Positions 37,246 through 56,088 of a DNA stretch of 64,000 nt are shown here, one piece after another. Both the position numbers and the translations under genes were made by a program. Below the pieces are notes generated by a model. It made no database searches and was not told where the DNA came from. It worked only from the letters and a program-made list of their open reading frames with translations. Source of the DNA: Temperatibacter marinus (lineage in GTDB: Bacteria; Pseudomonadota; Alphaproteobacteria; Sphingomonadales; Kordiimonadaceae). The DNA lies in contig NZ_CP123872.1 of NCBI RefSeq assembly GCF_031598375.1, forward strand, positions 2,972,501 through 3,036,500, given 5' to 3'. Each line of letters begins with the position of its first letter. Position 1 is the stretch's first letter.

Positions 37246-37914
37246 GTGACTGATTATCAGTATGACGGTGTTGTGTTTGATTTAGACGGCACTCTAGTAG
37301 ATACCGCCCCTGACTTGCTCGCGAGTACAAATTATGTGATGGATCTATACAGCCGCCCTGCCGTTACAATGGACATTATCAAGGACGGGATTAGTTTTGG
37401 TGCCAAGAGGATGATGCGCGATGCTTTTTTAAGCAATGGGGGCATAACTGGAATCAACCTTGATAGCGCCCTGCCCGACTTCTTAAACTATTACCATGAG
37501 CACATTTGCATTCACTCAAAACTTTTTGAAGGGGGCTATAAATTTCTTATTGCGGCGAAAGAGGCTGGCATCCCTGTCGCCGTTTGTACAAATAAATCAG
37601 TTGAACTTGCAACCCATCTTCTCAATGAATTAGACATCATGTCTCTGCTCACCGCTCTTACGGGGGGCAATAGTTTTACCTTTAAAAAACCTGATGCACG
37701 TCACTTGACGGAAACCAGAAATCTAATGAAATTAGACAAGTCTCATACCATATTGATGGTCGGTGACAGCTCCAATGACATCAATGCTGCTAAAAATGCT
37801 GGCTGGGATAGCGCTGTCGTCACATTTGGCTATTTGGATGTTTCTCTCGAAAGTTTGCAGGCGACCTATGAAATTAACTCACTTGCTGATTTAATTCCCA
37901 TTGTCGGTTTATGA
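37246..37914 (+). CDS. HAD-family phosphatase (phosphoglycolate phosphatase-like)
   Basis: A 222-residue HAD hydrolase. Motif I is FDLDGTLVDTAPDLLA near residues 11-26, motif II is VAVCTNKS, the lysine lies in FKKPDARHL and motif III in MVGDSSNDINAAKNAG. The cap and length fit the Gph/PGP group, which removes 2-phosphoglycolate, but substrate prediction within HAD is unreliable. Start is GTG at 37246, preceded by gagga. Its last six bases overlap the end of the convergent nucleotidyltransferase-fold gene. Confidence 0.85.
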   Translation: MTDYQYDGVVFDLDGTLVDTAPDLLASTNYVMDLYSRPAVTMDIIKDGISFGAKRMMRDAFLSNGGITGINLDSALPDFLNYYHEHICIHSKLFEGGYKFLIAAKEAGIPVAVCTNKSVELATHLLNELDIMSLLTALTGGNSFTFKKPDARHLTETRNLMKLDKSHTILMVGDSSNDINAAKNAGWDSAVVTFGYLDVSLESLQATYEINSLADLIPIVGL

Positions 37915-38976
37915 CCGTCCCCACGCATTCTTGTAATATTTAAATTTGATCATAAAATCCTTCTTGGCTTTCGTAAAAAGATGCGCTGCCAGCATCCCAA
38001 GAGGCATTCTTAAATAATGTGACCGACAATAAAGAAATAACTTTGATATCCCCTTAGGCTCGAGAGCAAGTTGATCAAGAAACGCCTTAGATACAAGGGA
38101 TGACGTATGTTTCTTGATGAAAGAAAGAGAAGATTCAAGACGTGAATCCTCCGTTATTGCATAGATGGCAGACAGAGCATAAGCAACGGCCTTTGAAGCA
38201 CCTACCTCTGCAGCGCGCGCTATAACAAGATCTAGCGAACAGTCTAAATCGTCAAAGAGATCAAGTAACTCTACTAAACTGCGGCCGAAATTATCTCCCT
38301 CTTCATCAAGCATATGATGAACAGCGGCATGAATGAATAAATCAACATCTGCAAATCTGAAGAAGGGGGTCCCCTCTATAGGAACTGCTGTCTCGATCAT
38401 GGGGTCTATTTTTATAGAAAAGCGGTGCGTCAGGGGCAGAAGTGCATGATGAATATCAAGAACAGACTTTCTCGTTTTATGTCTAAGCGGCGGTAATTCA
38501 TGCATATATGTACGGTAGTAAACCTGATCATAGGGATTATCTGTTGTGCTATCATATCCCCAGTCATTTTGAAGCATGAAGCGCTCTAACGCGGCCAACT
38601 GAGGTTTCGGGACCAAAAGATCCACATCTGTCACCCGCCTACCTCTCGCAGCTTTCTTACCTGCCATAATATAGGCACTGCCTTTCAGCAGAATTATTTT
38701 CCCCTCTTCTTTCAGCAGAAGGCGATGTAGCCTATTAATTTCAAAAGATGTCCTTCGCACATCTCCAGACGACACTACTCTCTGATCTTCAATGATCTCC
38801 CTAAGAATTTGATCGAATTCAGAAGATCTCTCCTGCGCAAGCATATCTTGTTGTTCATGGGCTATTCTGCCAAGCAAGTGATGCTTTTTTGCCCATTTTA
38901 TAAAACCACTACGACCAGCGTTGCCCTGCAGGGATTTTTTGCCTCTGGTAAACTCAAGATACTCTTTCATCTTCAT
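37909..38976 (-). CDS. Nucleotidyltransferase-fold protein (NTP_transf_5-like) of the HprK-related cassette
   Basis: A 355-residue protein of the PF14907-like nucleotidyltransferase family. Around residues 96-124 it carries IILLKGSAYIMAG and then VTDVDLLVPKP, the strand/DxD arrangement for metal and nucleotide binding. The C-terminal half is helical with IHAAVHHMLDEEGD, typical of this family. The start at 38976 overlaps the kinase stop as ATGA; a longer frame to 39012 exists. It is the last gene of the leftward cassette with the HprK-related kinase and PqqD-like protein. Members appear beside lasso-peptide and HprK-related gene sets; the reaction is not established. Confidence 0.78.
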   Translation of the reverse strand: MKMKEYLEFTRGKKSLQGNAGRSGFIKWAKKHHLLGRIAHEQQDMLAQERSSEFDQILREIIEDQRVVSSGDVRRTSFEINRLHRLLLKEEGKIILLKGSAYIMAGKKAARGRRVTDVDLLVPKPQLAALERFMLQNDWGYDSTTDNPYDQVYYRTYMHELPPLRHKTRKSVLDIHHALLPLTHRFSIKIDPMIETAVPIEGTPFFRFADVDLFIHAAVHHMLDEEGDNFGRSLVELLDLFDDLDCSLDLVIARAAEVGASKAVAYALSAIYAITEDSRLESSLSFIKKHTSSLVSKAFLDQLALEPKGISKLFLYCRSHYLRMPLGMLAAHLFTKAKKDFMIKFKYYKNAWGRS

Positions 38977-39899
38977 GAGAGCACCCCGATCTGCCTCAAA
39001 AGAGACTGACAATCTTCTAAAGAGTTATACTCAAGAGAATAACATGTTGCTTGTTCCGCGACAGAAGAAAGAGCGTCAAACCCTGATCGCCCTAACGCTT
39101 TATAATTGGTCGAGCCAGGGATCATTTTCAAAATACTTTCACTGGTCCGTAATTCTTTAAGCTGGCCTCCTGAGGGGGCGTTCACCTTGAACTTTGGAAA
39201 TAGAATATACTTACAACCAGCATCAAGTGTGCGGCCTTCAAGATCCATCTGCCTTGGCCGTCTATACGCGAGCGTCCCTTTGGGTGTTTTATAAAAACGA
39301 TCACTGAACTGGTCTGATTCAGTAAAAGACTTAACAACATCAATACTTGCATTTTTTAAAGACACAGGGCGAGGAAAGGGTTTCAACAGTCCTGATTTCA
39401 TATCAATGATGCCAAATTCATCACTTAACAATCGGTAATTATTTTCCATGAGAAAGGCCGTCATCGTGCTCTTTCCTGAGCCAGAGCCTGCCGGCATCAA
39501 TATGGCTTCGCCTTTGCTATTTGCTACAGCCCCAGCATGTAAAATTAAATGCCGGTAAGTCCCAAGAGCAGTATGCAAATTCAATCCCATTTCTAAGGAC
39601 AAAGGAGCTAAATGAAGAGGCAGCGGCATCAATCCTTGAAAACCAGTATTCACAGGAACAACTTGGCGCCTAAAATATTGACGTAATTTTGTCGGTGCCT
39701 GAAGCTGCAAGGTAAAATGAGACAGTTTCTCTTCTATACAGACAGGAACATGATGATATTGATTTCTCAGGAAGGGTATAATGTTACGATAGGATGTTTT
39801 CACCGTGAACTTTATGGTTCCCATATCAAATTGTAACTTGCCAGTCTTTAAAGCCTTGGCGAGATGGTGATCGGTAAAATTGGATAAAAACTGCTCCAT
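38973..39899 (-). CDS. HprK-related kinase A
   Basis: A 308-residue protein whose C-terminal half resembles the HPr kinase catalytic domain. The P-loop PAGSGSGKSTM lies at residues 136-146, after HAGAVA at 121-126. SDEFGIIDM follows, with the acidic strand. The N-terminal part (about 1-110) is not the HprK_N domain. This matches the HprK-related kinase A family, found with a PqqD-like protein and a nucleotidyltransferase. Its stop overlaps the nucleotidyltransferase start (ATGA) and it begins one base after the PqqD-like stop, so all three are tightly coupled. The phosphorylated substrate is unknown. Confidence 0.8.
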   Translation of the reverse strand: MEQFLSNFTDHHLAKALKTGKLQFDMGTIKFTVKTSYRNIIPFLRNQYHHVPVCIEEKLSHFTLQLQAPTKLRQYFRRQVVPVNTGFQGLMPLPLHLAPLSLEMGLNLHTALGTYRHLILHAGAVANSKGEAILMPAGSGSGKSTMTAFLMENNYRLLSDEFGIIDMKSGLLKPFPRPVSLKNASIDVVKSFTESDQFSDRFYKTPKGTLAYRRPRQMDLEGRTLDAGCKYILFPKFKVNAPSGGQLKELRTSESILKMIPGSTNYKALGRSGFDALSSVAEQATCYSLEYNSLEDCQSLLRQIGVLS

Positions 39900-39900
39900 C

Positions 39901-40197
39901 CTACAATCTCATCTCACTTGGTTCAATCAGCCCTGCCTCATCCAAAGATTTTAGGGCATTATTCAAGAGTTGATCATGAACCTCCGTAGATGTCACCTGA
40001 AGGCGCTGAGCAAAAACTTCTTTCAATTGCCCTGCTGGTACAGGATTTTGTGCGATCAGTTCAAGCAATTCATACGAGATTGCATTTAATACATGTGTAT
40101 CACCAGACCGATAATTATATATAAGAAAATAATCATCAACCATTTTGGTTGAAAACCAAGAAGCGTCAGAAAGCCAGTTTAGCGCGGTAAATTGCAC
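39901..40197 (-). CDS. PqqD-like peptide-binding protein (HPr-rel-A type)
   Basis: A 98-residue winged-helix protein with the PqqD/RRE layout: VDDYFLIYNYRSGDTHVLN strands, then HVLNAISYELLELIAQN and a C-terminal helix-turn-helix ending in EAGLIEP. PqqD domains bind leader peptides of RiPP precursors. The start was placed at the GTG at 40197 with aaggga upstream, since this gives the family's usual length; a longer frame to 40269 would overlap the preceding gene. It is immediately followed by the kinase. In this context it may present a substrate peptide to the kinase. Confidence 0.75.
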   Translation of the reverse strand: MQFTALNWLSDASWFSTKMVDDYFLIYNYRSGDTHVLNAISYELLELIAQNPVPAGQLKEVFAQRLQVTSTEVHDQLLNNALKSLDEAGLIEPSEMRL

Positions 40198-40229
40198 AAG
40201 GTAGTCCCTTGTTGATATATAAGAAATGA

Positions 40230-40973
40230 TTAATCTTGTCCAAAGCCAACGAGAATGGAATGAATGCAACTAATGCCAGGAAAAGCACCGTCATTGCCGT
40301 ATTCTTGGGCATAGAGGACCATTAGATAAATGTAGAGTTGATTAGCGTTTTGCGGTTCAATCCAATTACCGGAGCCATCTACGTAATTGTTTACATTTGT
40401 CGCCGCACCAGTGGTTTCGTAAATTTTATAGGTGCCACACAAATCTTCTTCACAGCTGCTACTATCGTCGCTGCTGTCATCGCCTTTGCCACTGCTGTCA
40501 TCATCGACTGTACAGCTATTATCATCACTGCTGTCATCGTCTTTGCCTTTGCCTTTGCCCTTACTACTACTATCATCACTCTCCTCTTCAACAGGTCCTG
40601 AAGGGCAATCATCCTCATCAGGTCTGAATTGGTTAGGGGCCGCTTGACGGTCTGTAGTAATATCAGCCTGGTTTTTAATGTCGTCCACAAGTGCTTGAGT
40701 AATTTTCTCCCCTTGCCACTGAGCCGAAATACTATCGCCCATCCAGACTTTACCATTGCTTCTCACCATCATTACATAACCAGCCGGGATCGTAAAAAGG
40801 CAATCTAGTTGTGAAATAACAGAAGCTGAAACCCCAGAGTTCACTGTCATCATCATAGGTAGCCCCGCAGCACCCATTTGCAAAAGGCGGCGCCGGTTAG
40901 CTTGATTAGATGTTAATGTCTCGCTCATTCTCCCCGTATTTTCGGGAGTCTGAGAATGGTTTGAATTTGTCAC
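40230..40973 (-). CDS. Tat-like exported protein 1 with Asp/Ser-rich insert (paralogue of 41166-41819)
   Basis: A 247-residue protein of no family I recognise. Residues about 27-50 form a Tat-like signal (NRRRLLQMGAAGLPMMMTV, with an RRR before a hydrophobic stretch). Conserved blocks shared with the upstream paralogue are ISQLDCLFTIPAG, NGKVWMGDSI, KIYETTG and, at the C-terminus, GNDGAFPGISCIHS followed by GQ. Between them lies an Asp/Ser/Lys/Gly-rich insert absent from the paralogue. Three cysteines in the conserved blocks could form disulfides or bind metal. Start is GTG at 40973 with aaggag. It precedes the PqqD-like gene by 32 bp, suggesting one operon. Confidence 0.65.
   Translation of the reverse strand: MTNSNHSQTPENTGRMSETLTSNQANRRRLLQMGAAGLPMMMTVNSGVSASVISQLDCLFTIPAGYVMMVRSNGKVWMGDSISAQWQGEKITQALVDDIKNQADITTDRQAAPNQFRPDEDDCPSGPVEEESDDSSSKGKGKGKDDDSSDDNSCTVDDDSSGKGDDSSDDSSSCEEDLCGTYKIYETTGAATNVNNYVDGSGNWIEPQNANQLYIYLMVLYAQEYGNDGAFPGISCIHSILVGFGQD
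40447..40592 (-). repeat. Low-complexity Asp/Ser codon tract inside Tat-like protein 1
   Basis: About 145 bp of imperfect short repeats (variants of gatgacagcagt and ggcaaaggcaaag on the coding strand) encode runs such as DDSSDDNS and KGKGKGKDDDSS. The tract looks expanded by slippage. It lies at the place where the paralogue has only a short SKGKGDDEP stretch, so the expansion has occurred in this copy. Confidence 0.7.
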
Positions 40974-41165
40974 AATTCAACTCCTTAGATCACAATCTCA
41001 TTTCATATAGAGTTAACTATACGTACAAAAAGAGTTATTTGCATCTAAAATATCAATAATTATGAGGAAAGTGCAAGCTTTTAAGCAGTTTAATCATATT
41101 CAAAGGTGTAAAGACCTCCTCTTTAATCAAGAAGGAAGATCACAAAAAGGGCTAGGAATGTCCTC

Positions 41166-41819
41166 TTATAACTGCCCATGAAAGAGAAGAGCAGAGTGAA
41201 TACAGCTAATGCCAGGCAACCCGCCGTCATTTCCAAATTCATCTGCATAAGCCTTCATCAAATGAAGATATAGACCATTCGCATTGTTTGGGATGGACCA
41301 ATTCCCGTTTTCGTCAAGTATGTTCGTTATGTTGATGGGACCACCTGACGTTTCATATATTTTAAATCGCTCACAGCGATCTTTTCGGTCAATAACAGGT
41401 TCATCGTCCCCCTTCCCTTTAGACGTATTGGGCACAGAAGGGCAGTCAGCTATGGTCGGTCTAAAATTTGAAGGGGCAGAATTTCTTCCTAGAATGATAT
41501 CAGATTGATCCTTTATGTCTCGAATGATGCTGTTAGTAATCATTTGGCCCTGCCAATTAACGGTAATACTATCCCCCATCCAAACTTTGCCGTTATTGCG
41601 CACCAACATCGTAAAATTGGCAGGGATTGAGAAAAGACAATCCAACTGAGAAATTATATTTGATGAAGCCCCTGCTTTCATTGTCAGCATCATCGGCAAT
41701 CCCGCAGCACCCAGCGCAAGCAACCGTCGTCTTGACGCCTGGTCTTCAGTCATACCTGCCTGTTGATCATCCACTGCTGTATGGGGGGATGGATCTGTCT
41801 TCGATGTGGGAAATTCCAT
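41166..41819 (-). CDS. Tat-like exported protein 2 (paralogue of 40230-40973)
   Basis: A 217-residue protein of unknown family. A Tat-like signal (SRRRLLALGAAGLPMMLTM) lies near residues 29-47. Blocks ISQLDCLFSIPAN, NGKVWMGDSI, KIYETSGG and GNDGGLPGISCIHS match the downstream copy. It lacks the long Asp/Ser insert, having only a short SKGKGDDEP stretch. An aggag precedes the ATG. The two copies are 192 bp apart with no terminator I can identify, so they may be co-transcribed. The conserved C-terminal GISCIHS segment and paired cysteines mark a fold worth testing. Confidence 0.65.
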   Translation of the reverse strand: MEFPTSKTDPSPHTAVDDQQAGMTEDQASRRRLLALGAAGLPMMLTMKAGASSNIISQLDCLFSIPANFTMLVRNNGKVWMGDSITVNWQGQMITNSIIRDIKDQSDIILGRNSAPSNFRPTIADCPSVPNTSKGKGDDEPVIDRKDRCERFKIYETSGGPINITNILDENGNWSIPNNANGLYLHLMKAYADEFGNDGGLPGISCIHSALLFHGQL

Positions 41820-42017: not shown

Positions 42018-42707
42018 ATGAAGCCGAATATTTTAATTGTAGAAGATGATGATAATATTTCTGAGTTGATGCGATATAACCTAGAAAAGTCAGGGTATAC
42101 AGTAGAAACCTGCGATGACGGTGAAGAAGCTCTGTTCTGTGCAGGTGAATTAAATCCAGACGCTATTTTATTAGATTGGATGTTACCAAACCTATCAGGC
42201 ATAGAGATATGTCGCAGGTTAAGACGAGCACAGAAAACTGCCAATGTCCCCATTATTATGATCACTGCACGTTCGGAGGAGGCTGATCGAATTAGGGGAT
42301 TAGAAATTGGCGCAGACGACTATCTCACAAAACCCTTCTCGCCTCGAGAACTTGTTGCACGTGTCCAAGCTGTTCTACGTCGTGTGCGCCCAGCTCTGAC
42401 CGCTCAGAAAATTTCTTTTGAGGACATTGTGGTCGATACTTTATCACACCGTGTCACCCGCGGGAATCACCCTATACATCTGGGACCGACAGAATACCGA
42501 CTTCTCAGTCATCTTATGAATAATCCGCGGCGGGTTTTTTCTCGGGATCAATTGTTAGATAAAGTCTGGGGACATGATGTTTACGTAGAAGAACGAACAG
42601 TAGATGTACATATAAGGCGGTTAAGAAAGTCATTAAATCAAGATGATTTGCCAGACTATATCCGTACGATCCGCTCTGCAGGCTATGCTCTTGATACGGA
42701 AGCATAA
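42018..42707 (+). CDS. phoB: PhoB-like OmpR-family response regulator
   Basis: A 229-residue response regulator. The receiver (about residues 1-120) has the acidic pocket VEDDDN, the phosphoacceptor Asp53 in LLDWMLP and the lysine in LTKPF. The C-terminal winged helix (about 130-229; HLGPTEYRLLSHLMNNP, YVEERTVDVHIRRLRKSL) closely resembles PhoB. No histidine kinase is adjacent, so it is an orphan here. An aaggaac site precedes the ATG. It lies between the HprK-related cassette and the XrtA locus and converges on the amidotransferase gene. I see no convincing Pho box upstream. Confidence 0.8.
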   Translation: MKPNILIVEDDDNISELMRYNLEKSGYTVETCDDGEEALFCAGELNPDAILLDWMLPNLSGIEICRRLRRAQKTANVPIIMITARSEEADRIRGLEIGADDYLTKPFSPRELVARVQAVLRRVRPALTAQKISFEDIVVDTLSHRVTRGNHPIHLGPTEYRLLSHLMNNPRRVFSRDQLLDKVWGHDVYVEERTVDVHIRRLRKSLNQDDLPDYIRTIRSAGYALDTEA

Positions 42708-42746: not shown

Positions 42747-44645
42747 TTATGCTGCGTCTTTCCCTAGCAGATACGATAGACTTTCATCCAACATAATGAG
42801 GGCCCACAGTGTCCCTTCATGATTTTGCATACCGCTTGTGTGCTCTTTCACCATCTTATCAATGGAGTCAGTATTTAAATAGCCGGTTTCTTTTAGAGCT
42901 GGTGACTTGGATAGGCTTTGCAACTTCGTTAAAAGCTCATTATTCATCCAGTCGCCAACGGGCACATTAAACCCTTTTTTCTCGCGGTAAATAATATCTT
43001 TATCAACAAATTCTTCTAGGGCTTTTTTCAGGCAAGCTTTGCCATTCGTCCCTTGCAGTTGTTCTGTTTCCGGGACTGTTGCTGCCCATTCAACAAATTT
43101 GTGATCTAAGATAGGCACCCGCACCTCAAGGCTGTGGTGCATACTCGCTCGATCAACTTTAGTTAAAACACCTCCCGCTAAATAGGTTTTAAAATCAATA
43201 TATTTAATCCGAGCCATTTCAGTATCAGCGGGCGCTTCGGCATAAAGCCCTTTAAACAGGTCTCTCGTCCTATATCCCCCCAGGTCCCGCTCCAATTTAT
43301 CGCTTCGCAAAATATTCATTACCCGCGACGGCGTTTTAGAAACTGTATGACAATAGGCCTCTGCATCTGTCATTGCCAAAGCCTCAAAAGTGGACTTTGC
43401 TCTCAAAAATCTTGGTAGATAGTCAAATTTTGGATAGTAACGCCCTAAAAAGCCGAATAAATTACGGCGAATATTCTCAGGAATTAACTTTCTTAATTTG
43501 TGCTCTTGCATGTGAAGATACTGACGTCGATACCCAAAAAAGACTTCATCTCCACCATCTCCAGATAAGGAAACTGTGACATTCTCTCTGGCCGCTGCTG
43601 AAACTTTCAGCATTGGAATGGCTGAATTATCGGCAAATGGCTCATCATAAACACGGGCAAGGAGCTTTAAATCCAGCCACCGTGCAGGATCAGCCAACCG
43701 CATGCTGTGCTTGGTATTGAATATTTTAGCAACTTTATCGGCATAGCCACTTTCGTCCATTTCGACATCATCAATACCGATTGAACAAGTGTTAATAGCT
43801 TGATCACTGCTTGTGGCCATCAATGAGACCACAAGAGAAGAATCAACGCCGCCAGACAAGAAAGCCCCCAGCGGAACGTCTGAAATCATACGAATATCAA
43901 CAGCTTCTCTTAAACGGTCCACCAATTCTTTCTGAAGGTCGCCAGGATCTTGTTCCACCATAAAATTCAAATCCCAGTATTTTCTGATGACGGGCCCTTT
44001 GGCGCGACGGCTATAGGTGAGAGAATGTCCGGGGGGTAATTTGTATGAATTCAAGAAAATTGTCTTAGGATCAGGGATATAGCCTAGTGTTAAAAAGTCT
44101 TCGATCGCTTCAGGGTTTATTTCACGGCATAGGTCAGGAATTGCCAATAATCCTTTTAACTCCGAAGCAAATGCAAAAACGTCCCCAACTTGGGTGTAAT
44201 AGAGAGGCTTTATGCCTAAACGGTCCCGCGCAATGAACAGCTGTTGACGCATTGCATCCCAAATTGCAAATGAGAACATCCCCCTGAAATGAGTGACACA
44301 GTCATCCCCCCAATATAAATAAGCGTTCAGTAACACTTCGGTATCAGAGTGACTGGTCTGAAAAGTATAGCCCTCAGCTTCAAGTGTTTCTCTGAGTTCA
44401 GCAGCATTGTAGATTTCACCATTAAAAGTCAGAATTGCAGCCCCCCGAGAAGCATGCATTGGCTGAACGCCCCCTTCAAGATCCACAATCGACAGTCTTA
44501 AATGACCAAGAGCGATGCCTCTATCAATAAACTGGCCGGTACCATCCGGACCACGGTGTTGCATAGGGTCCATCATGGAATTTAAATTAACAGGAAGGAA
44601 TTCCTGTTTTCCAGATACTGAAAATAAGCCAGCTATGCCGCACAT
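42747..44645 (-). CDS. Asparagine-synthase-like amidotransferase, exosortase A system type 1
   Basis: A 632-residue class II glutamine amidotransferase. The N-terminal nucleophile is Cys2 in MCGIAGLFSV, the glutaminase domain covers about residues 2-200, and the synthase domain has the PP-loop GAFLSGGVDSSLV at about 260-272 followed by SLSGDGGDEVFFGY. The ordering and neighbours match the exosortase A-associated amidotransferase 1 family (XrtA loci), where it probably amidates a sugar in exopolysaccharide synthesis. A gagg site precedes the ATG. It is the last gene of the minus-strand XrtA locus, 25 bp downstream of xrtA. Ordinary asparagine synthesis is an alternative. Confidence 0.87.
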   Translation of the reverse strand: MCGIAGLFSVSGKQEFLPVNLNSMMDPMQHRGPDGTGQFIDRGIALGHLRLSIVDLEGGVQPMHASRGAAILTFNGEIYNAAELRETLEAEGYTFQTSHSDTEVLLNAYLYWGDDCVTHFRGMFSFAIWDAMRQQLFIARDRLGIKPLYYTQVGDVFAFASELKGLLAIPDLCREINPEAIEDFLTLGYIPDPKTIFLNSYKLPPGHSLTYSRRAKGPVIRKYWDLNFMVEQDPGDLQKELVDRLREAVDIRMISDVPLGAFLSGGVDSSLVVSLMATSSDQAINTCSIGIDDVEMDESGYADKVAKIFNTKHSMRLADPARWLDLKLLARVYDEPFADNSAIPMLKVSAAARENVTVSLSGDGGDEVFFGYRRQYLHMQEHKLRKLIPENIRRNLFGFLGRYYPKFDYLPRFLRAKSTFEALAMTDAEAYCHTVSKTPSRVMNILRSDKLERDLGGYRTRDLFKGLYAEAPADTEMARIKYIDFKTYLAGGVLTKVDRASMHHSLEVRVPILDHKFVEWAATVPETEQLQGTNGKACLKKALEEFVDKDIIYREKKGFNVPVGDWMNNELLTKLQSLSKSPALKETGYLNTDSIDKMVKEHTSGMQNHEGTLWALIMLDESLSYLLGKDAA

Positions 44646-44670
44646 GATAAAACCTCACACTGAGTAATTT

Positions 44671-46185
44671 CTAGAGCATACATTGCTCATCACCCTTAAC
44701 GGAATAAGTAACTAAAGGCAGAAAGTCACGTAATATTTTACGCGCCGCCTCTATGGTTTTTTCTGACGTGATTTTATCCATACTTACTGAAAGCAACAAG
44801 ACTGATGCCGAGCTGTTTGTTCCAGAGATCCGCTCTATTGTTAATTCTTTCCATAATGCAATTCTATCAACTATGGGCTCATTCTTCTTATAGTAGATGG
44901 TCCAAACAAGTTTGTTTGACCGTCGTTCCTGATTGCCTAAGGACACAATCCCTTCATGAACTGTCAAACCAATAGCTTCAAAAACTTTATCATGGCCATT
45001 TTGTTTTCTATATTTAGACGACCCAATTGAATTTCTTAGCGCGACAAGTTCATGTCCATCTCTCTGATATTGATAGTAATAATACCTGACATCAACAAAA
45101 CGATCAGCCTGGCGGAAGAGATATTTTTCGCTCAAATCAGCCCCCACGAAATTAGGCGTCCATAAATTCACACTTGTTGGCAGGGGACGCCAGTCAGCGG
45201 TAACATTAAGATGCAGAGTAGGACGTTCACAGTTATTTACACGGGCTGAGGCCAGCTTGTAATTCAAAAGGGCTGGTAACATGAGCAAGAGACCCAAACC
45301 TAAAACAGGCATCCACGAGCTTGCAGCAGGATACCGCAGAGGCAAGCGTATAAAAGGTTTTTTAGGCGCTTTCTTAAAAGCATAAGAGATCAAAACAAGC
45401 ATGATAACGGATAAAAATATCCAACCGTAAATCATATGATCTGTAGACATAGCAAATTCATAACTATAATATTCAGCGATCAAAATGATCGTCACAACGC
45501 GCAAAATATTAGCAAATATTGGGATAACAATCGAGAGCCCGATGACCAACAATTTATCCCTAAAGCGCTCAAATAACATGGCTGATAAAAAATACCCAAT
45601 CATCATAGACGTGGTTAAGAAGTTCAACCCTGCACAAGCCTTCGCTATGAGATAGGAACCGCCCGACATGTGAATAAAGATACCATCACTTCTCAAATCC
45701 TCTGCAACCAGAGACAAGAGCGTGACAGCCCCTTTAGCGCTGATTGACTGCAAGTAAGGAACAATGACAAAACCGAAAGGAACGATGAAAGCAAAACAGG
45801 CAAGGGCATAGAAATAAAATTGAAATTGACGACGCCCTATGACTGTCAAGGCAATTGACCACCCCCCTAAAACGATCGAGATATGACTTAACGAGGCAAT
45901 AGACATTAGCTGCCCTGATGTATAAATAAGAATAGCGATGACGGCAAGTAACAGACCCAGCCCGTCAATTTTTGGAGGTACGGGGCGCCCTCGGTCTTTT
46001 AATATTGTGTATCTTTGATAGAGCAAATAAAGAGTGAGCAATGGTGCAAATAGAGCGTAATCATATGTACCGTGATGCCATAAAACATCCCATAAATGAA
46101 TAAAGGCGGGAAAAAAGGCCCAAACCATGGCAGCCATTAATAGGATGGCAATCGCTAAATGTGTTGGCCATAGCCCTAATCTCAT
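44671..46185 (-). CDS. xrtA: Exosortase A (XrtA) fused to an EpsI domain
   Basis: A 504-residue inner membrane protein. The N-terminal part (about residues 1-280) is a multi-helix exosortase with the catalytic triad Cys184 (AKACAGLNF), Arg229 (FANILRV) and His250 (TDHMIYGW). The C-terminal part (about 290-504) is a periplasmic EpsI-type domain, the fusion typical of XrtA. Exosortases cut the PEP-CTERM sorting signal of exported proteins and transfer them onward. The gene lies 3 bp downstream of a glycosyltransferase gene with an aggact ribosome site. No PEP-CTERM protein is encoded in this window. Confidence 0.95.
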   Translation of the reverse strand: MRLGLWPTHLAIAILLMAAMVWAFFPAFIHLWDVLWHHGTYDYALFAPLLTLYLLYQRYTILKDRGRPVPPKIDGLGLLLAVIAILIYTSGQLMSIASLSHISIVLGGWSIALTVIGRRQFQFYFYALACFAFIVPFGFVIVPYLQSISAKGAVTLLSLVAEDLRSDGIFIHMSGGSYLIAKACAGLNFLTTSMMIGYFLSAMLFERFRDKLLVIGLSIVIPIFANILRVVTIILIAEYYSYEFAMSTDHMIYGWIFLSVIMLVLISYAFKKAPKKPFIRLPLRYPAASSWMPVLGLGLLLMLPALLNYKLASARVNNCERPTLHLNVTADWRPLPTSVNLWTPNFVGADLSEKYLFRQADRFVDVRYYYYQYQRDGHELVALRNSIGSSKYRKQNGHDKVFEAIGLTVHEGIVSLGNQERRSNKLVWTIYYKKNEPIVDRIALWKELTIERISGTNSSASVLLLSVSMDKITSEKTIEAARKILRDFLPLVTYSVKGDEQCML

Positions 46186-46188
46186 GCC

Positions 46189-47418
46189 TTAGTCCTCGCT
46201 GTCCGTCTCAATCATAGAAGTCAAAAGACTATCTAATGTTTGAAATTGGCTTTCCCAACTAAAATTGGCCATGACCCATTCCCTAGCTTGAGCCCCTATG
46301 CTATTTGCGTGAGGCACATCTTCAAGCAAGCTTAAGATTTGTTTCGCCATAAGAATAGGATCATCCCGAACAAATATTGTCGTCTCTTGAGGGGCTTCAA
46401 TGCCGGTATAAGCCTCAGTTGTTGAGACAACAGGTTTGGCCATTGCCATACCTTCAAGCACTTTATTCTGCACCCCTCTTGCCGTTCTAAGCGGTGCAAC
46501 CATGATTTTTGACGCTTTTATCCAGTCGCGCGTTTCTGGCACACGGTCAGTGACAATCACGCCCTCGATCTCCGCAAGCCTCTGCACATCCTGAGAGGGC
46601 TTCCCCCCCACAATTGCAAAGGTTATGGTTGGGTATTTATTTTTTAACATAGGAAATACATTTTCACAAAACCAACAAACAGCTTCAATGTTTGGGCGGT
46701 AATCCATAGCGCCGGTAAAAACAAGGTCTGAGGCTTCCGCTGCAGATACGTCTGCTTGCTCAGCACTAAAATAGTGGCAATCAACCCCATTATTCAAACC
46801 AGAGACTTTCTGTGCTAGATCGGCGGATTGAGGTGACATACGCTCTTTAAACAGCGCAGCTTCCTCTGCACTGACTAAGATTGTTTCATGTGAAGAACGA
46901 GCGGCAAAATCTTCTTCTTTTCCAAGAGTTATCGCTTCTCGGTTATAGATCCAGCTCATGGGGAAGGAACTGTCTGCGCTATAAGCTTCCCATTTGGCTG
47001 AATCAACATCAACCATATCCATCAAAATAGGAATATTTCCAGCATGTTTTTCACTAAACTGTGCCATACCACAAGAAAAAACAAATACACCGTCGACCTG
47101 TTTCGATTGAATGAGCGCGTCCGTATAACGCTGCATAGAACGACTTGTATAGGAAGCTCGCGTGATTGATTGCCCTCTAAAAAGCCCCGAAAGACCATAT
47201 ATTTTATTCATCAGTCCAGTACGCTCTATTGCATGAACAGATTCACAAAGAGACTTTAAATAACTTATATGCTGTCGGTCTTCAGGGTCATCTATAAAAC
47301 ATCCCAAATGCACTGAGTGGTTGTTTAAGAGATGTTTTAAAAAATTCCATGATCTGATCTTATCCCCTTTATTCGGAGGGTATGGAATACGATGCGCTAA
47401 AAAGAGAATATTCGCCAT
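46189..47418 (-). CDS. Glycosyltransferase of the XrtA-associated TIGR03087 type
   Basis: A 409-residue GT-B glycosyltransferase. It begins ILFLAHRIPYPPNKGDKIR, as the XrtA/PEP-CTERM-associated sugar transferase family does. The C-terminal donor site has VFTGAMDYRPNIEAVCWF, PLRTARGVQNKVLEGMAM and KPVVST. Cytoplasmic, building the repeat unit or chain of the exopolysaccharide. I chose the ATG at 47418 rather than 13 codons upstream, because the longer start would lie in the FemAB gene. The end abuts xrtA (3 bp). Confidence 0.85.
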   Translation of the reverse strand: MANILFLAHRIPYPPNKGDKIRSWNFLKHLLNNHSVHLGCFIDDPEDRQHISYLKSLCESVHAIERTGLMNKIYGLSGLFRGQSITRASYTSRSMQRYTDALIQSKQVDGVFVFSCGMAQFSEKHAGNIPILMDMVDVDSAKWEAYSADSSFPMSWIYNREAITLGKEEDFAARSSHETILVSAEEAALFKERMSPQSADLAQKVSGLNNGVDCHYFSAEQADVSAAEASDLVFTGAMDYRPNIEAVCWFCENVFPMLKNKYPTITFAIVGGKPSQDVQRLAEIEGVIVTDRVPETRDWIKASKIMVAPLRTARGVQNKVLEGMAMAKPVVSTTEAYTGIEAPQETTIFVRDDPILMAKQILSLLEDVPHANSIGAQAREWVMANFSWESQFQTLDSLLTSMIETDSED

Positions 47419-47425
47419 ATGACAC

Positions 47426-48478
47426 CTATGAAAGATCCTTTGAGACAAGAGGGCCAATAATATTTGCTAGAAAGAGTGGCATTTTCTGCCAAGTCTTGAT
47501 CATCAATTGATATTTAGGGTTTTTCGGCGACATATCAGGCATTTCACTTCCGTCCAACATCAAATATTCATACTCATATTGTTCGGGGGTATAGCCTAAT
47601 TTCTTTTTGAAATCATAAGAGCCTGTTCCAACCTTGCTCCGTCCAAGGTCATAGGTATGACATCCTTTTTCACCCGCTCTGACTAATTGTTTAAAAAGCA
47701 TGAAATCATTCACTGCCCATTGTCTTGCCTCGGGCAAACTTCCCATATAATAAGGCAATCCTATGCCTTCATAGAAAAATGTCAGCAACGCACCGATAGA
47801 CTTTCCCTCTGGGGTCCGAACTACCAATATCTCTCTTTCTTCGCTTGGGACAAATTTTAAAAGCGCTGTAAAATATGACTTTGAAAAAACCGGCGTACCA
47901 AGTCGGTGAACACTTGCACTATAGTGCGCATGAAATTCTTCAAGATCATCACCGAAAGTACAGACTAATTCAGCCTTCATCCCCTTGCGCACAGTTGGGC
48001 GTTGTTTATTGGGCAGCGCTAGAATATTTGCATCTTCACCTTCCAAGATTGGGCGGCGAAACCTTGCATACATACCATCTTTTACATGCCAATTTATCTG
48101 TTCTCTGTGAGAGGCCTTCACACTTCGATATTCAAGATAAGGACTTCCGTGGCTCTTGCATTCATTTTGAGCTGCATGATCTAGGGCCTTCCTCGCTTCC
48201 TCATTTATAGTGAGAGGGCCGCCCTCAACACCGAAAGCAATGGATTTGACAGCTTTGCCGAAGACAAGAGATTTGTGCAAAGTCAAAGGTAAGACGCCAA
48301 CAATTTTAGTCTCGTCATAAGCGATCAAGAAAACGCAGGAAAGTCCAGCACCCTGTGTACAGATGTCATACCAATATGAAAGATGAAAAAAGCTACCCTC
48401 AGGGTGACTTCTGACAAAATCATCCCAGGCTTGACGGGTTTCTTCGCACCCTGTTAACTTCCGAACCTCAAGGGTCAT
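47426..48478 (-). CDS. FemAB-like acyltransferase of the XrtA locus (TIGR03019-like)
   Basis: A 350-residue protein of the FemAB/GNAT-fold superfamily. Two GNAT-like halves are visible, with FFHLSYWYDICTQGAGLSC at the start and LLTFFYEGIGLPYYMGSLPE and YDLGRSKVGTGSYDFKKKLG near the end, matching the XrtA-associated FemAB family. Members are thought to transfer an aminoacyl or acyl group, possibly to the exopolysaccharide or its carrier, but the substrate is unknown. Its start overlaps the deacetylase stop by four bases. Confidence 0.82.
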   Translation of the reverse strand: MTLEVRKLTGCEETRQAWDDFVRSHPEGSFFHLSYWYDICTQGAGLSCVFLIAYDETKIVGVLPLTLHKSLVFGKAVKSIAFGVEGGPLTINEEARKALDHAAQNECKSHGSPYLEYRSVKASHREQINWHVKDGMYARFRRPILEGEDANILALPNKQRPTVRKGMKAELVCTFGDDLEEFHAHYSASVHRLGTPVFSKSYFTALLKFVPSEEREILVVRTPEGKSIGALLTFFYEGIGLPYYMGSLPEARQWAVNDFMLFKQLVRAGEKGCHTYDLGRSKVGTGSYDFKKKLGYTPEQYEYEYLMLDGSEMPDMSPKNPKYQLMIKTWQKMPLFLANIIGPLVSKDLS

Positions 48479-49350
48479 TCCTCCTCACCCCCAAAATACA
48501 CATCTTGAAAGGTTGACCATTCAAAATCAGCGCATAACGCGTCCAATTTTCCGAACATTCTCGACAGGTTCACATAATGTCTAAATTTACTTTTCGCTGG
48601 CAACGCAACAACTCTAGGCTGATCCGGGTCAATCTCCCATGGATGGAAGTAAAAATTCCCTGGAAAATTCAACTGCTTATGAGCAGACCGCATCCCACTT
48701 CTCATCAAGCTATAAGGAAAAAGCCTAAAAAATCCGCCCCCCGCTACAGGTAAATTTTTACCAAACTTTGACAGCGTTGTCGGAGGAATTTCTACAATAG
48801 AGAGCCCCTCTTTAGGCAAGAAAGCGACCCGTTCAGCAGCAGGGCTACCGTAATGATCATGAGCGATAGGATACAGACTTGAAGAATATGTAAAACCCTG
48901 CTCTTCCAAAACATCATAAGCCCAAAAACAGTCATCCCTTATTGAAAAGCTGGGAGCACGATAGCCTTTTACGGCAACGCCTGCTGCCTCTTCTAAACAG
49001 GCTTTGGCCTTTATAAGGTCTTCCCTAAACTCCTTCTGAGAAAAATTAAAGACACGTCCATGATCATAACCATGACAAGCTAATTCATGGCCGGCATCAG
49101 TCATTTTTCTAATCAGGGAAGGATTTTTCTCAGCAACCCAACCAAGGGTAAAAAATGTAGCTCTAATGGAATGCTTATCAAAAAGCTCTAATAAGTGTGA
49201 CATTTGAAAATCCAGGCGATGAGCGCACTGTGCCCAGTCGTCTTTACTCAAATGTTTTTCAAAGGCCCCGACCTGGAAATATTCTTCCACATCGACACTC
49301 ATTGCATGAAGGCCTTTTTGGGGCTTGATTATCTCTGTCAGTGCACTCAT
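48475..49350 (-). CDS. XrtA-locus polysaccharide deacetylase
   Basis: A 291-residue NodB-fold deacetylase. SVDVEEYFQVGAFEKHL carries the catalytic and metal aspartates, and ELACHGYDHGRVFNFS the metal histidines. GYRAPSFSIRDDCFWAY and NFYFHPWEIDPDQPR complete the family pattern, which is the XrtA-associated deacetylase type. It likely removes N-acetyl groups from the exopolysaccharide. The ATG at 49350 is used here; an internal ATG 16 codons later (49302) gives the shorter MSVDVEEYF start seen in many relatives. No signal peptide is visible, as in this family. Confidence 0.86.
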   Translation of the reverse strand: MSALTEIIKPQKGLHAMSVDVEEYFQVGAFEKHLSKDDWAQCAHRLDFQMSHLLELFDKHSIRATFFTLGWVAEKNPSLIRKMTDAGHELACHGYDHGRVFNFSQKEFREDLIKAKACLEEAAGVAVKGYRAPSFSIRDDCFWAYDVLEEQGFTYSSSLYPIAHDHYGSPAAERVAFLPKEGLSIVEIPPTTLSKFGKNLPVAGGGFFRLFPYSLMRSGMRSAHKQLNFPGNFYFHPWEIDPDQPRVVALPAKSKFRHYVNLSRMFGKLDALCADFEWSTFQDVYFGGEEE

Positions 49351-49383
49351 TTCAAACCAGTCTCTGATCTAGACATTCAAGAA

Positions 49384-50418
49384 TTAGTCCTTATCAGATA
49401 GCTTAGAGACCATTTCAGTCAATTTCTTAAGCGAATCTTCTTGAGACTTAATATATTCCTCAAGGTTATTGACCTTGCTTCGTAAATGATCAGCCTCTTC
49501 CTTGGCAGTGTCTCTCTCTTGTTCCATTTGAGAAAGGGGTGCCATGTCGTCTTTAGCTGTCAACGTTGGTCCCGATTGCTGAGACTGAACTCGCCCCTTT
49601 GCTCCTTGGTTTTCTGCCATTTCTGAAATGACTTTCCGAACAACATCACCTGTTATTTCATGAACTTCCTCAAGCGAACCATAAAGTAATATTCGAGACA
49701 TCAGTGTATTCAAAATACGCGGAACACCTTGCGTATAATCATAAATTTCTGCAACAGCCTCGATATCGAATTCTGGATCACCATCCCAACCAACGAGACT
49801 TAATCTGTGTTCAATATAATCCGCAACCTCTTCCGGCTCCATGGGATCAATATGATGAGTTGCAATCACGCGCTGGCGCAGCTGTTCTAACTCTGGCGCA
49901 TTAAAGATACGCGTTCTAAACTCTGGCTGCCCTACTAAGAAGCTTTGTAACAGAGCATCTTCCCCAGACTGAAAGTTAGAAATCATCCGCATTTCTTCTA
50001 AAGCCGCACTGGATAAATTTTGCGCCTCATCAACCACGAGTAAGACACGTTTCCCAAGGCTATTCTGCTCCCGTAAGAAACGCTCCAACCTAGTAATCAG
50101 CTCGCCTTTTTCCTCGGCCTGTGTATCAAGCCCATAAGCTGCAGCCACCGTACGGAGAAGATCGTCAGCGCTCAACTGAGTTGACACAATCAAAGCCGCT
50201 ACAAATTCATTCCGATCAAGAGTGTCGAAAAGGTGACGAACAAGGGTGGTTTTTCCTGTACCAATATCACCTGTAACAATTATAAAACCTTCCCCTTGAG
50301 AGAGCCCATAGGTCAAATAAGCCATGGCTTTCTTATGTGACCTAGAAGAATAATAAAATCTAGGATCAGGGGTTAGCTGAAAAGGACGGCCGCTTAAATT
50401 ATAAAAGTCTTCATACAT
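49384..50418 (-). CDS. AAA ATPase of the XrtA locus (TIGR03015-like)
   Basis: A 344-residue ExeA/GspA-like ATPase. It begins MYEDFYNLSGRPFQLTPDP, with Walker A TGDIGTGKTTLVRHL near residue 50, Walker B VLLVVDEAQNL, and sensor segments after QSFLVGQPEFR. A C-terminal coiled coil (about residues 295-344) is rich in Glu and Lys. This protein type accompanies XrtA loci and is thought to interact with cell wall or secretion components, but the role is unsettled. The start has only a weak ribosome site. It lies 33 bp upstream of the deacetylase. Confidence 0.85.
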   Translation of the reverse strand: MYEDFYNLSGRPFQLTPDPRFYYSSRSHKKAMAYLTYGLSQGEGFIIVTGDIGTGKTTLVRHLFDTLDRNEFVAALIVSTQLSADDLLRTVAAAYGLDTQAEEKGELITRLERFLREQNSLGKRVLLVVDEAQNLSSAALEEMRMISNFQSGEDALLQSFLVGQPEFRTRIFNAPELEQLRQRVIATHHIDPMEPEEVADYIEHRLSLVGWDGDPEFDIEAVAEIYDYTQGVPRILNTLMSRILLYGSLEEVHEITGDVVRKVISEMAENQGAKGRVQSQQSGPTLTAKDDMAPLSQMEQERDTAKEEADHLRSKVNNLEEYIKSQEDSLKKLTEMVSKLSDKD

Positions 50419-50442
50419 TAGATAAAGTCTCTGCCTTACTGT

Positions 50443-51933
50443 CTAAAATGTTCCGCGGAGGTAGAAGGTAATCGCATTCTCTGACAAATTCCCTGTAGGA
50501 TCTGTAGAGGACCGCCTCGTATAAGCATATGATAAAGCTGCCTTAAAATACTTAGACAATGTCTTCTGCCAATCTACCGCCCCTGTTTTATACTCATCAA
50601 TACGGTTACCACCGTCTATGAAATTCTTCCTATAGCTTACAGTTGCTGAAATCGTGGTCAACCTATTTATCTGCCTCTCCCAACCAGCACTGCCCCCCCA
50701 AGACCAAGAGTTCGGAATGTCTGCATCAAACACTCGTCTTTCTCTATTACCTGTAAAGTAGAAAGAATCACGTTTTTTGTTCCAAGTCAATGTTCCATTC
50801 CAGATATATTGCTCATAATCGATATCTGAGAGCGAAAAGGAAATATCTGAATCATCAACAGGTAGCCCAGTACCATCATCAATACCAAATTCTTGTTCAA
50901 AATTAGTTTGTTGCAATCGATCCGCAAGGCCTAAAGCATTGGACGTAAAATCAACGCTATGGGTCAATCTAAAGTTCACGCGCGATGTAATCTGATAATA
51001 AACAGAGAGTGTATCATAGTTACGTGAGCCAAGATCCTCTCTGTTAAAGGATAAATTCAATTTTGGTCCAGGTTTTAGAGAGACACCATAGCTCCAAAAC
51101 CGATTATCAAGATCAAGCTTATCAGTTTGTGCATTATTCCCTCTTATACCATATCCGAAATCAAAAGAAATGAACCGGTTTGGCTTAAACTCACCTTCAG
51201 CCGCATACCGCCATTCCGAAAAATCTTCCTCGATCAGGCTTTTTTCTACACGCTGATAATTGCCAGATACTTTCCATTCAAAATTATGAAACCGCTTTCC
51301 CGAAGAAAGTGTCCCTGTCAAATTATGAGAGATTGTGTCAGAAAAATTAACAGTCAGTGTCTCATCATCCAAATCGTCTGCAGGACTATAGACCTGACCA
51401 AAACGATAGCCCATTTCTAAGTTAGCAAGATCAAAAACCCGCGATCGCCATTGAGCAGAAGTATTATAATTTTGAATCGTTCTTCTGTTATTTGACCGGT
51501 TCGCATCCGAATTTGAATATCCACCCTGACGATCAATAAATTCTTGTTGAATGCCTGCTCTTGCAGAAATATTTAACTTTCGGTCAAAAAGATAGGTATC
51601 AAAAGTACCAAAAAGATTATGCCGGATATCCGTTGATTTATCATCTAGGAAATAAAAATAATCCATCCAATAGTCTATAGCGAACTCTGTTTTTGCAAAT
51701 TTTAGTCTGACGTCAAACCCTGGAGAAGCATTCAAGACAATCCCGCCCTCTTTCGTTTCCCCATCAATTGCAAGATTTAAATTGTCAGAATATGTTGCCT
51801 TCCACTCCCCTCTGACATCGATCTCTATGATAGATTGAGCTGCGATTGGACGTGACAAAAGAATAACAAAAGCCAGCAAAAATCCGCTGACTTTGACTAA
51901 GATCCCCTTATCTGATTGTGACATAGCTGCCAT
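50443..51933 (-). CDS. Outer membrane beta-barrel protein of the XrtA locus (TIGR03016-like)
   Basis: A 496-residue protein with an N-terminal signal peptide (SGFLLAFVILLSRPIAAQS) and many amphipathic beta strands with aromatic girdles (RFHNFEWKVSGNYQRVE, YKTGAVDWQKTLSK), ending in the sequence AITFYLRGTF, as outer-membrane barrels do with a terminal Phe. This matches the PEP-CTERM/XrtA-associated barrel family, likely involved in polysaccharide export across the outer membrane. The start is uncertain: GTG 51942, ATG 51933 and ATG 51924 are all possible; I chose 51933. It follows the kinase gene directly. Confidence 0.8.
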   Translation of the reverse strand: MAAMSQSDKGILVKVSGFLLAFVILLSRPIAAQSIIEIDVRGEWKATYSDNLNLAIDGETKEGGIVLNASPGFDVRLKFAKTEFAIDYWMDYFYFLDDKSTDIRHNLFGTFDTYLFDRKLNISARAGIQQEFIDRQGGYSNSDANRSNNRRTIQNYNTSAQWRSRVFDLANLEMGYRFGQVYSPADDLDDETLTVNFSDTISHNLTGTLSSGKRFHNFEWKVSGNYQRVEKSLIEEDFSEWRYAAEGEFKPNRFISFDFGYGIRGNNAQTDKLDLDNRFWSYGVSLKPGPKLNLSFNREDLGSRNYDTLSVYYQITSRVNFRLTHSVDFTSNALGLADRLQQTNFEQEFGIDDGTGLPVDDSDISFSLSDIDYEQYIWNGTLTWNKKRDSFYFTGNRERRVFDADIPNSWSWGGSAGWERQINRLTTISATVSYRKNFIDGGNRIDEYKTGAVDWQKTLSKYFKAALSYAYTRRSSTDPTGNLSENAITFYLRGTF

Positions 51934-51945
51934 AAAGCTCACTAA

Positions 51946-53202: not shown

Positions 53203-53238
53203 TTATTTGCTCCATACCATAGACCGGTTAGCCATCTA

Positions 53239-54837: not shown

Positions 54838-54887
54838 GATAAGCTCCTGTCTTCATGTAACTTTTCGTTACTCATCATCTTTACTTT

Positions 54888-54919
54888 GAGATCATGCCCA
54901 GTGTAGCAGACATGATCTC
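54888..54919. promoter_or_regulatory. 9-bp inverted repeat upstream of the Wzz-like gene
   Basis: GAGATCATG at 54888-54896 and CATGATCTC at 54911-54919 form a perfect inverted repeat with a 14-base centre. It lies 51 bp upstream of the Wzz-like start. It may be an operator or an mRNA hairpin; the leftward side lacks a T-run. Confidence 0.4.
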
Positions 54920-55022
54920 TTTTGTCTTTGCCCGTTTCTAAGGCCGCTTTATAGCCACTCTATTCTAAAGGGCACCAAACTCTGACACCATTCTCTGGCG
55001 AAATTATGACCATTCAAACCTT

Positions 55023-55036
55023 GGATCATATGATCC
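55023..55036. promoter_or_regulatory. Perfect 14-bp palindrome between export and Wzz-like genes
   Basis: GGATCATATGATCC is a perfect palindrome, 19 bp downstream of the export gene stop. It shares the GATCAT half-site with the inverted repeat at 54888-54919, suggesting a common DNA-binding protein, although this is inference. Confidence 0.35.
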
Positions 55037-55055
55037 GCTTCAAAAGCTTGCGCCT

Positions 55056-55685: not shown

Positions 55686-55944
55686 TCAGTTCACTCCTAC
55701 AAATGCCAATATCCTGCTTCTTTTAGGCACAAGCCCTTGATATGTTAAAATAGTTCATCACTAAAGTAGTGTTTGCAATATCTATACCTATTTGAAATCT
55801 ACTGATTTTTCTACATAAATCAAAGGAAAGAGCATTTTTTTTCTTGTTGTCAGACCATTCTTTTTCTTGAGCTTTCCATTTTTTTGCAAAATGACACAAA
55901 TTATGAGGAATAAATTTCATTTTGCTAATTGAAAAGACAAGGCC

Positions 55945-56088
55945 TCAAGGATCTATCTCATCCTCATCAGAAAGTGGCTCTTTATAATTTTCCCACCATT
56001 CCCCCTGCCCTTCATCTTTCATAAGAGCATAAAAAACTGTGTATAAAATCAATAGGCTACAGATAAGAAAGAATAAAGTTTCTAACAT
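55945..56088 (-). CDS. Small single-pass membrane protein (47 residues) in the XrtA locus
   Basis: A short ORF of 47 codons begins with the ATG at 56088, overlapping the stop of the upstream glycosyltransferase gene by seven bases, with aagga nine bases before it. The product has one hydrophobic helix (about residues 4-20, LFFLICSLLILYTVFY), then GEWWENYKEP and a very acidic C-terminus (DEDEIDP). Overlap, ribosome site and a clean membrane-plus-tail layout argue that it is real. I recognise no family. The 55686-55944 stretch downstream is otherwise empty apart from an unconvincing 65-codon frame. Confidence 0.5.
   Translation of the reverse strand: MLETLFFLICSLLILYTVFYALMKDEGQGEWWENYKEPLSDEDEIDP

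Follow-up and report, generated by a model that had tools for sequence, protein, structure and literature searches.

This work concerns a cassette of five genes in a 64,000-nucleotide stretch of the Temperatibacter marinus genome, called the window below, which spans positions 2972501-3036500 of a 3.18-Mb single-contig genome (NZ_CP123872.1). The cassette lies on the minus strand at 37909-41819 of the window and encodes two similar proteins with signal-like N-termini (twin A and twin B), a PqqD-like protein, an HprK-related kinase A, and a nucleotidyltransferase. Proteins of the twin family in other genomes are called precursors here, after the role that we propose for them. The cassette is made up as follows, where RRE is the recognition element of ribosomally synthesized and post-translationally modified peptides (RiPPs).

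41166..41819, minus strand: twin A, 217 amino acids (aa), with a signal-like R30-R31-R32, C61, C206, and S209 (from the open reading frame (ORF), alignments, and an AlphaFold2 (AF2) model)
41193..41204, minus strand: C206-x-x-S209 motif of twin A, with the putative phospho-acceptor Ser
40230..40973, minus strand: twin B, paralogue of twin A, 247 aa, GTG start
39901..40197, minus strand: PqqD-like discrete RRE (TIGR04353), GTG start, 52.4 bits (cut-off 35)
38973..39899, minus strand: HprK-related kinase A (TIGR04352), 308 aa, P-loop GSGSGKST, 229.1 bits (cut-off 200)
37909..38976, minus strand: nucleotidyltransferase (PF14907), 355 aa, pattern D117-x-D119 ... D174, 105.3 bits (cut-off 31.2)

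An earlier note on this DNA had described five leftward genes here, and all five ORFs were confirmed open on the minus strand when the sequence was read. The three enzyme genes are nearly overlapping, as it had said: pqqD and the kinase gene are separated by 1 nt, and the kinase and nucleotidyltransferase genes share a 4-nt ATGA overlap; the spacing is 192 nt between the twin genes and 32 nt between twin B and pqqD. The start of pqqD is most likely the GTG at 40197. The ORF list gives the TTG at 40269, but TIGR04353 matches the long frame only from residue 44 on, and the GTG has AAGGGA ahead of it. The twins are indeed paralogous (56% identity by alignment); twin B has an additional Asp/Ser-rich linker with a Cys, and its C236 and S239 are the equivalents of C206 and S209 in twin A. 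Of the conserved cysteine blocks that the earlier note saw in the twins, C61 and C206 of twin A hold up across the wider family and the other Cys residues do not. The same note found the twins unfamiliar and suspected an undescribed component, and this fits the databases: no family model exists for them, which is why they could not be recognised. Neither twin has an NCBIfam match up to E 0.1 or a meaningful Pfam match (twin B matched solely CDC45, at E 0.1), and no NCBIfam model covers the precursor in the twins and the 12 relatives scanned. In a plasmid record, the gene adjoining the annotated HPr-rel-A PqqD is labelled 'hypothetical protein'.

Pairing of the twin family with the kinase

The survey of the order covered 196 genomes, 90 of which carry the kinase (88 over the cut-off and 2 just under it). 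A single-sequence query with twin A matched 27 genomes, all 27 with the kinase, and in the family of the window (f1), 26 of 29 genomes have the twin, the kinase, and PqqD together, while the other three have no strong match to any of them. A profile (A3) built from 45 of 63 detected precursors matched 88 of the 90 kinase genomes and 1 of the 106 others (Fisher p 1.7e-52, uncorrected for relatedness), and this lone match, in G164, is an N-terminal match in a 527-residue frame and was judged spurious. The two kinase genomes missed by the profile, G006 and G036, both belong to family f6, and G006 has a weak candidate (E 0.0035). TIGR04353 matched all 90 kinase genomes at E 0.001, as well as 12 of the 106 others, always below its cut-off in the latter. 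In a survey of the class (385 genomes), the kinase was over the cut-off in 11, and the profile matched 14 genomes including 10 of these 11. The remaining four are G318, where the precursor and pqqD are truncated by a contig end; G356, where by eye the precursor frame is fused to transposase-like sequence; G281, with a match in a 534-residue frame and a sub-threshold kinase in the genome (of which the kinase locus alone was fetched); and G208. Eight of the 11 class loci were fetched, and the precursor lies directly upstream of pqqD in seven; G202 has a weak precursor candidate only, downstream of the nucleotidyltransferase gene. In the samples examined, a twin-family partner is near-universal for the enzyme trio. 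Homologues of the twins without the kinase, which would have spoken against the earlier suggestion that the twins are substrates or products of a peptide-modification system, are not common, and the pairing in order and class supports that suggestion.

The pairing also persists where the genes have come apart. The distance from precursor to kinase gene is 3.5 kb or less for 80 of 88 precursors, 4.4 kb for 1, and 164-685 kb for 4; the other 3 are on other contigs. In G035, G080, G118, and G166, pqqD stands beside the kinase gene and the precursor far off on the same contig; in G053, the precursor and pqqD lie together inside one contig and the kinase inside another; the draft G097 shows a pattern like that of G035 and the others across contigs. 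With G045 left out as a fragmented assembly, precursor and kinase were co-retained after unlinking in five genomes, and probably in a sixth (G097). The lone precursor of G080 is divergent to a histidine kinase gene that resembles phoR from its translation.

Two copies of the twin family occur in the window and in L058, L069, and L042, and one copy in the other loci, so that the two-copy state is incidental. Unlinked extra members occur at family-f1 loci (L063, L066, L071, L079, L081, L083, L087). The extra copies lie downstream of one shared 427-450-aa gene at 7 of 8 loci, and the two such genes scanned (L063, L071) encode extracytoplasmic function (ECF)-type sigma factors with DUF6596; five of the extra-copy loci also share a 117-171-aa gene, and the one scanned encodes a YCII protein. 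Such an unlinked copy may be a differently regulated substrate.

The arrangement extends beyond the Alphaproteobacteria. From a scan of 84,980 species genomes with the kinase profile, the best 80 of the listed loci were kept as named loci; 75 of them have 1 kb or more of sequence ahead of the kinase gene and were counted. A same-strand ORF with Arg-Arg, a hydrophobic stretch, and a Cys fills the slot before the kinase in 74 of these 75 loci, compared with 141 of 2510 slots drawn at random. In L110 and L139, the wrong frame seems to have been picked (the true precursor of L110 is in another frame, and that of L139 is unsupported), and L147 has no slot ORF of this kind.

Precursor types, putative export signal, and enzymes

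In other families, the precursors encoded upstream of pqqD are shorter than the twins, at about 120-190 aa. The only invariant columns in 45 alpha-type precursors are R31, C61, C206, and S209 (twin A numbering), and C206-x-x-S209 is also invariant in a second alignment (A4). Every one of the 63 precursors found by profile has [ST]CxxS near its C-terminus. Of the 45 alpha-type named precursors, which were found by position and not by profile, 44 have [STN]CxxS within their final 60 residues; the single miss is the wrong-frame L110, and the control was 57 of 2106 ORFs of 100-320 aa. The Ser of C-x-x-S appears from this conservation to be the best candidate acceptor in the alpha type. The AF2 model of twin A has a mean predicted local distance difference test score (pLDDT) of 76.4. 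Most positions within 61-130 and 151-217 exceed 80, and a folded domain is predicted for the mature part with fair confidence. A known fold was sought by comparing this model with the PDB and was not found (best E 3.0, none below 0.001, no Z of at least 2), which does not by itself prove a new fold.

A second type of precursor was found at the 33 loci of the beta/gamma group, 32 of which are labelled Beta- or Gammaproteobacteria and 1 Phycisphaerae. The slot is filled in 29, of which 24 were aligned; L115, L116, L139, L155, and L176 were left out, some of them being apparently closer to the alpha type. The 24 aligned precursors share a different mature part, C..S...SGNLS....C.G..PGYW....F..VF...AALLNA. 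Nine of the 29 are without a Pfam match up to E 0.1, and two are without an NCBIfam match up to 1e-6. The precursors of two alphaproteobacterial genomes of the class survey (G196 and G546) look by eye like the beta/gamma type, so the types are not strictly split by class. A constant signal with exchangeable mature parts would be expected if the machine reads the N-terminus.

Relatives of the cassette were also seen in other arrangements. On Vibrio alfacsensis plasmids (L179, 4731-7798), a precursor of beta/gamma type by eye, an HprK-related kinase A, and a nucleotidyltransferase are encoded beside phosphonate genes; in the one of three such records that was opened, no pqqD is annotated between the genes and none was found by the PqqD profile. 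At four alphaproteobacterial loci (L189, L190, L191, L192), an HprK-related kinase that scores below threshold is encoded in a frame of 377-404 aa. A nucleotidyltransferase-like frame adjoins it at three of them, where no precursor or PqqD was recognised; perhaps these form a sister system.

The N-termini of the twins have the motif RRR-x-LL followed by a hydrophobic stretch, and TatC, of the twin-arginine translocation (Tat) pathway, is present in the genome. Judging from this motif, we think it rather likely that the twins leave the cytoplasm by Tat export, and a Tat-like signal would be apt for a substrate that undergoes modification, and perhaps folding, ahead of export. Within the hydrophobic stretch, P-x-x-[LIVMA]-[TS] occurs in 74 of 115 precursors and in 21 of 256 other ORFs with RR plus a hydrophobic stretch, a control in which many ORFs are not real signals; members of the Sphingomonadaceae type are without the Pro. 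This motif as an RRE site can be taken as a lead only.

Both enzymes look active, because their catalytic signatures are intact and they have structural matches. In 20 aligned kinases, H121, the P-loop residues G140, G142, and K143-T145, and D160-E161 are invariant. The P-loop region of the kinase profile aligns to HprK structures with weak matches (E 0.0016-0.008); it differs in that the alignment covers residues about 115-166 only, and no role in acting on a phosphotransferase system (PTS) substrate is suggested. K98-G99, R113, D117, D119, and D174 of the nucleotidyltransferase are kept in at least 127 of 129 sequences (DxD of D117 and D119 in 128, D174 in 127), and we take the three Asp residues to be the catalytic residues of a polymerase beta-type active site. 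Its AF2 model (pLDDT 91) has the nucleotidyltransferase fold of the MenT and ANT enzymes, matching MenT1 (Z 12.9, root-mean-square deviation (rmsd) 2.7 over 176 aligned residues) and ANT(2'')-Ia (Z 9.8, rmsd 3.6 over 162), and differs from them by additional N- and C-terminal helices. A weaker match to FKRP, a transferase of phosphoribitol (Z 6.1, rmsd 4.1, 153 aligned), perhaps reflects just a common arrangement. On these models, the donated group could be a nucleotide or a phosphosugar, and the gene context would point to the precursor rather than to transfer RNA or drugs as the acceptor. Profile matches of the PqqD-like protein to the PDB are weak (TfuB1 at E 0.15, a lasso PqqD chaperone at E 0.4), and unrelated chains rank as high.

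Genomic setting

The cassette is flanked by a regulator gene and an exopolysaccharide locus, and an ankyrin-repeat protein gene (Pfam; 36395-37198, plus strand) lies just beyond its other end.

42018..42707, plus strand: phoB-like regulator, divergent from twin A (TIGR02154, 342.2 bits, cut-off 296.2)
42747..61617, minus strand: XrtA/PEP-CTERM-type exopolysaccharide locus, with amidotransferase and exosortase A as its first genes and the others named from translations

The amidotransferase and exosortase of this locus score slightly under the XrtA-specific cut-offs. A lasso peptide pathway by way of the neighbouring Asn-synthase-like gene was considered and rejected: the gene scores as an XrtA-type amidotransferase (the nearest copy, the only one scored, has 794 bits with TIGR03108, cut-off 816.9, versus 272.5 with the lasso cyclase model NF033535, cut-off 525), and no B2 peptidase matched in the genome at E 0.001. 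Exosortase matches occur in 85 of the 90 kinase genomes and in 65 of the 106 others. Among genomes with both places listed on one contig, all 34 outside family f5 have an exosortase gene within 25 kb of the kinase gene, and none of the 16 in f5 does (a family to which a Sphingomonas ursincola contig belongs); this count leaves out G006, G036, G112, and some second exosortases. At least two exopolysaccharide-type genes lie within 8 kb of the cassette at 7 of 33 beta/gamma loci and 24 of 97 other loci. Genes of the pho/pst kind are divergent to the cassette at 58 of 80 distinct alpha-type loci (after removal of 17 duplicate pairs between two locus sets) and at 0 of 33 beta/gamma loci. Thus, neither neighbour is essential, since exosortase is absent nearby in the listed f5 cases and pho/pst in the beta/gamma loci. 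A surface role next to exopolysaccharide is plausible.

Because pho/pst genes stand beside many alpha-type loci, we scanned for a PHO box (consensus CTGTCAT-N4-CTGTCAT). The scan does not support control of the twins by Pho, as they score 9 and 10 of 14, the level of chance; 13 of the 137 upstream stretches scanned (including duplicates and unlinked second copies) reach 11 or more of 14, versus 4.3 expected from base shuffles. On a Sphingomonas plasmid (L178, 1-9597), the cassette lies between divergent genes for pstC, a substrate-binding protein, and an ATP-binding protein, and glmU-glmS; similar pho/pst and glmS neighbours recur at other alpha-type loci. Amino-sugar or phosphate supply may matter to the cassette.

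Proposed mechanism and relation to known systems

We consider it probable that the cassette is a dedicated protein-modification system with the twins as its precursors. The support computed here consists of the gene order, the co-occurrence, the co-retention after unlinking, the conserved motifs, and the intact catalytic signatures; from these we infer the binding, the modified residue, the order of the steps, the export by Tat, and the role at the surface beside exopolysaccharide. In the proposed sequence, the PqqD-like protein would bind the N-terminal leader of twin A or twin B and deliver the precursor to the HprK-like kinase. The kinase would phosphorylate a Ser, for which S209 in the invariant C-terminal Cys-x-x-Ser is the most likely choice. 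The nucleotidyltransferase, alone or together with a partner, would then attach a nucleotide or sugar at this site, and the modified protein would exit the cytoplasm via its Tat-like signal. The parts of this proposal differ in strength. That the twins are the cognate substrates of the cassette is its firmest part and seems likely, and the kinase probably acts on a Ser of the precursor. The choice of S209 as the target is tentative, and whether the nucleotidyltransferase acts on the same precursor is evenly balanced.

Several points weigh against this proposal. The twin A query misses 63 of the 90 kinase genomes, and the order-wide count with profile A3 is partly circular, as the profile was made from loci of the same order sample; the twin A single-sequence search, the class survey, and the named loci found by the kinase are not circular. 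The genomes are related and hence not independent. The signal test for the slot gave 42 of 75 versus 75 of 2510 random slots with an uncharged run of 13 residues; after misses had been seen, the required run was relaxed to 11 and the test repeated against controls of that kind. The Tat-signal models PF10518 and TIGR01409 miss the twins and score 13.1-13.3 bits, below cut-off, in the few relatives that they touch. A C-terminal CxxS occurs in 2 of 29 beta/gamma precursors, and since most of them are without it, S209 is not a general target; in most, a stretch rich in Ser follows the first Cys, and this may hold the best candidate acceptor of this type. Finally, in the system of Bacillota for linear polyphosphorylated peptides (LPP; Popov and colleagues, 2026, Nat Commun), deletion of lppN had no visible effect in a heterologous host (PMC13381572), which makes the nucleotidyltransferase step uncertain.

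Other explanations would account for part of these data. The kinase and nucleotidyltransferase might act on another substrate, such as a sugar, a lipid, or another protein of the exopolysaccharide pathway, with the twins as escorted, unmodified exported partners; this would fit the exosortase gene near the kinase in all listed genomes outside f5, as well as the different mature part of most beta/gamma precursors, which leaves no obvious common target residue. The precursor is kept in the listed f5 cases without a nearby exosortase, however, and in the systems with an RRE and an HprK-like kinase described in PMC9266682 and PMC13381572, the RRE-bound precursor is itself phosphorylated. We therefore regard this explanation as unlikely. 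Somewhat less likely still is a RiPP pathway proper, in which the precursor is cut, a short modified peptide is the product, and the Arg-Arg and hydrophobic stretch is an RRE leader instead of a Tat signal. The enrichment of the Pro motif speaks for such a pathway, as do the three enzymes shared with LPP and the conserved N-terminus with a variable remainder that LPP precursors also have (PMC13381572). Against it stand the mature part, which is predicted to be a folded domain, the leader motif [YW]xxPx[LVIAFY], which occurs in 0 of 135 precursors (twins included), and the peptidases: neither the B2-type lasso leader peptidase PF13471 (Transglut_core3) nor the archaeal-type (SipW-like) signal peptidase TIGR02228, whose coverage of LppS is assumed, has a match in the genome at E 0.001. 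It is very improbable that only old synteny next to the pho/pst and exopolysaccharide genes has kept the five genes adjacent. The pho/pst genes near most alpha-type loci indicate a wider conserved region, yet gene order is mostly kept in the beta/gamma loci that have none, and this explanation was already disfavoured by the five genomes, and probably a sixth, that retain both genes although these are unlinked.

With these results, the orphan HPr-rel-A enzymes gain a concrete candidate substrate, several hypothetical proteins become one testable family, and RiPP-style recognition is tied to proteins predicted to be folded and exported. If the cassette does modify the twins, it would reveal surface proteins of a new kind, carrying phosphate or a phosphosugar, in Alpha-, Beta-, and Gammaproteobacteria, often beside exosortase and exopolysaccharide genes. 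More broadly, and with considerable reserve, Proteobacteria might possess a widespread, undescribed class of exported proteins on which an RRE, a kinase, and a nucleotidyltransferase act in the cytoplasm before Tat export, first by phosphorylation and then by nucleotidylation or glycosylation. Such a route to the surface would be built from RiPP parts, with at least two unrelated mature domains on one kind of signal, and often linked to exosortase A exopolysaccharide loci.

In terms of known families, the kinase (TIGR04352) and the adjacent PqqD (TIGR04353) of the cassette are over-cut-off members of the HPr-rel-A system of NCBIfam, whose models name two enzymes and do not cover the precursor. 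We found no paper on the HprK-related kinase or HPr-rel-A, in a search that left subscription journals mostly outside, so absence is not proven; combined searches led, among the papers listed, to work on lasso peptides, on RREs, and on other subjects, and the RRE-Finder article (PMC7470986) never uses the word kinase in its main text. What is new here is the near-universal partner of the trio, the candidate target motifs that differ by precursor type, and a resemblance to LPP without its leader and peptidase criteria.

Two described groups come closest. In the paeninodin- and pseudomycoidin-type lasso pathways (PMC9266682), an HprK-like kinase phosphorylates the C-terminal Ser (PadeK and PsmK act on the precursor Ser), and PsmN, an annotated nucleotidyltransferase, is linked to hexoses on the phospho-Ser, a host enzyme not being excluded; the likeness to the cassette lies in the RRE, an HprK-like kinase with a (here putative) C-terminal target Ser, and a nucleotidyltransferase. 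Rumen lasso clusters often have HPr kinase, PqqD, and nucleotidyltransferase genes as well (PMC7533575). LPP has a discrete RRE, an HprK-like kinase, a nucleoside triphosphate (NTP) transferase, a SipW-like peptidase, and an MsbA-like exporter, and its kinase LppK adds several phosphates to one Ser (PMC13381572). The cassette shares with it a discrete RRE, an HprK-like kinase, and an NTP transferase in one operon without a macrolactam cyclase, in addition to the precursor layout mentioned above. The difference is that LPP has a YxxPxVLxHQ leader with the SipW-like peptidase and the MsbA-like exporter, and the cassette has a Tat-like signal instead; no MsbA-like exporter is encoded in the five-gene operon, the only region inspected for it. 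Taken together, our best reading is that the cassette would be a proteobacterial, Tat-linked relative of the LPP and lasso phosphorylation systems, with the twins as its putative substrates.

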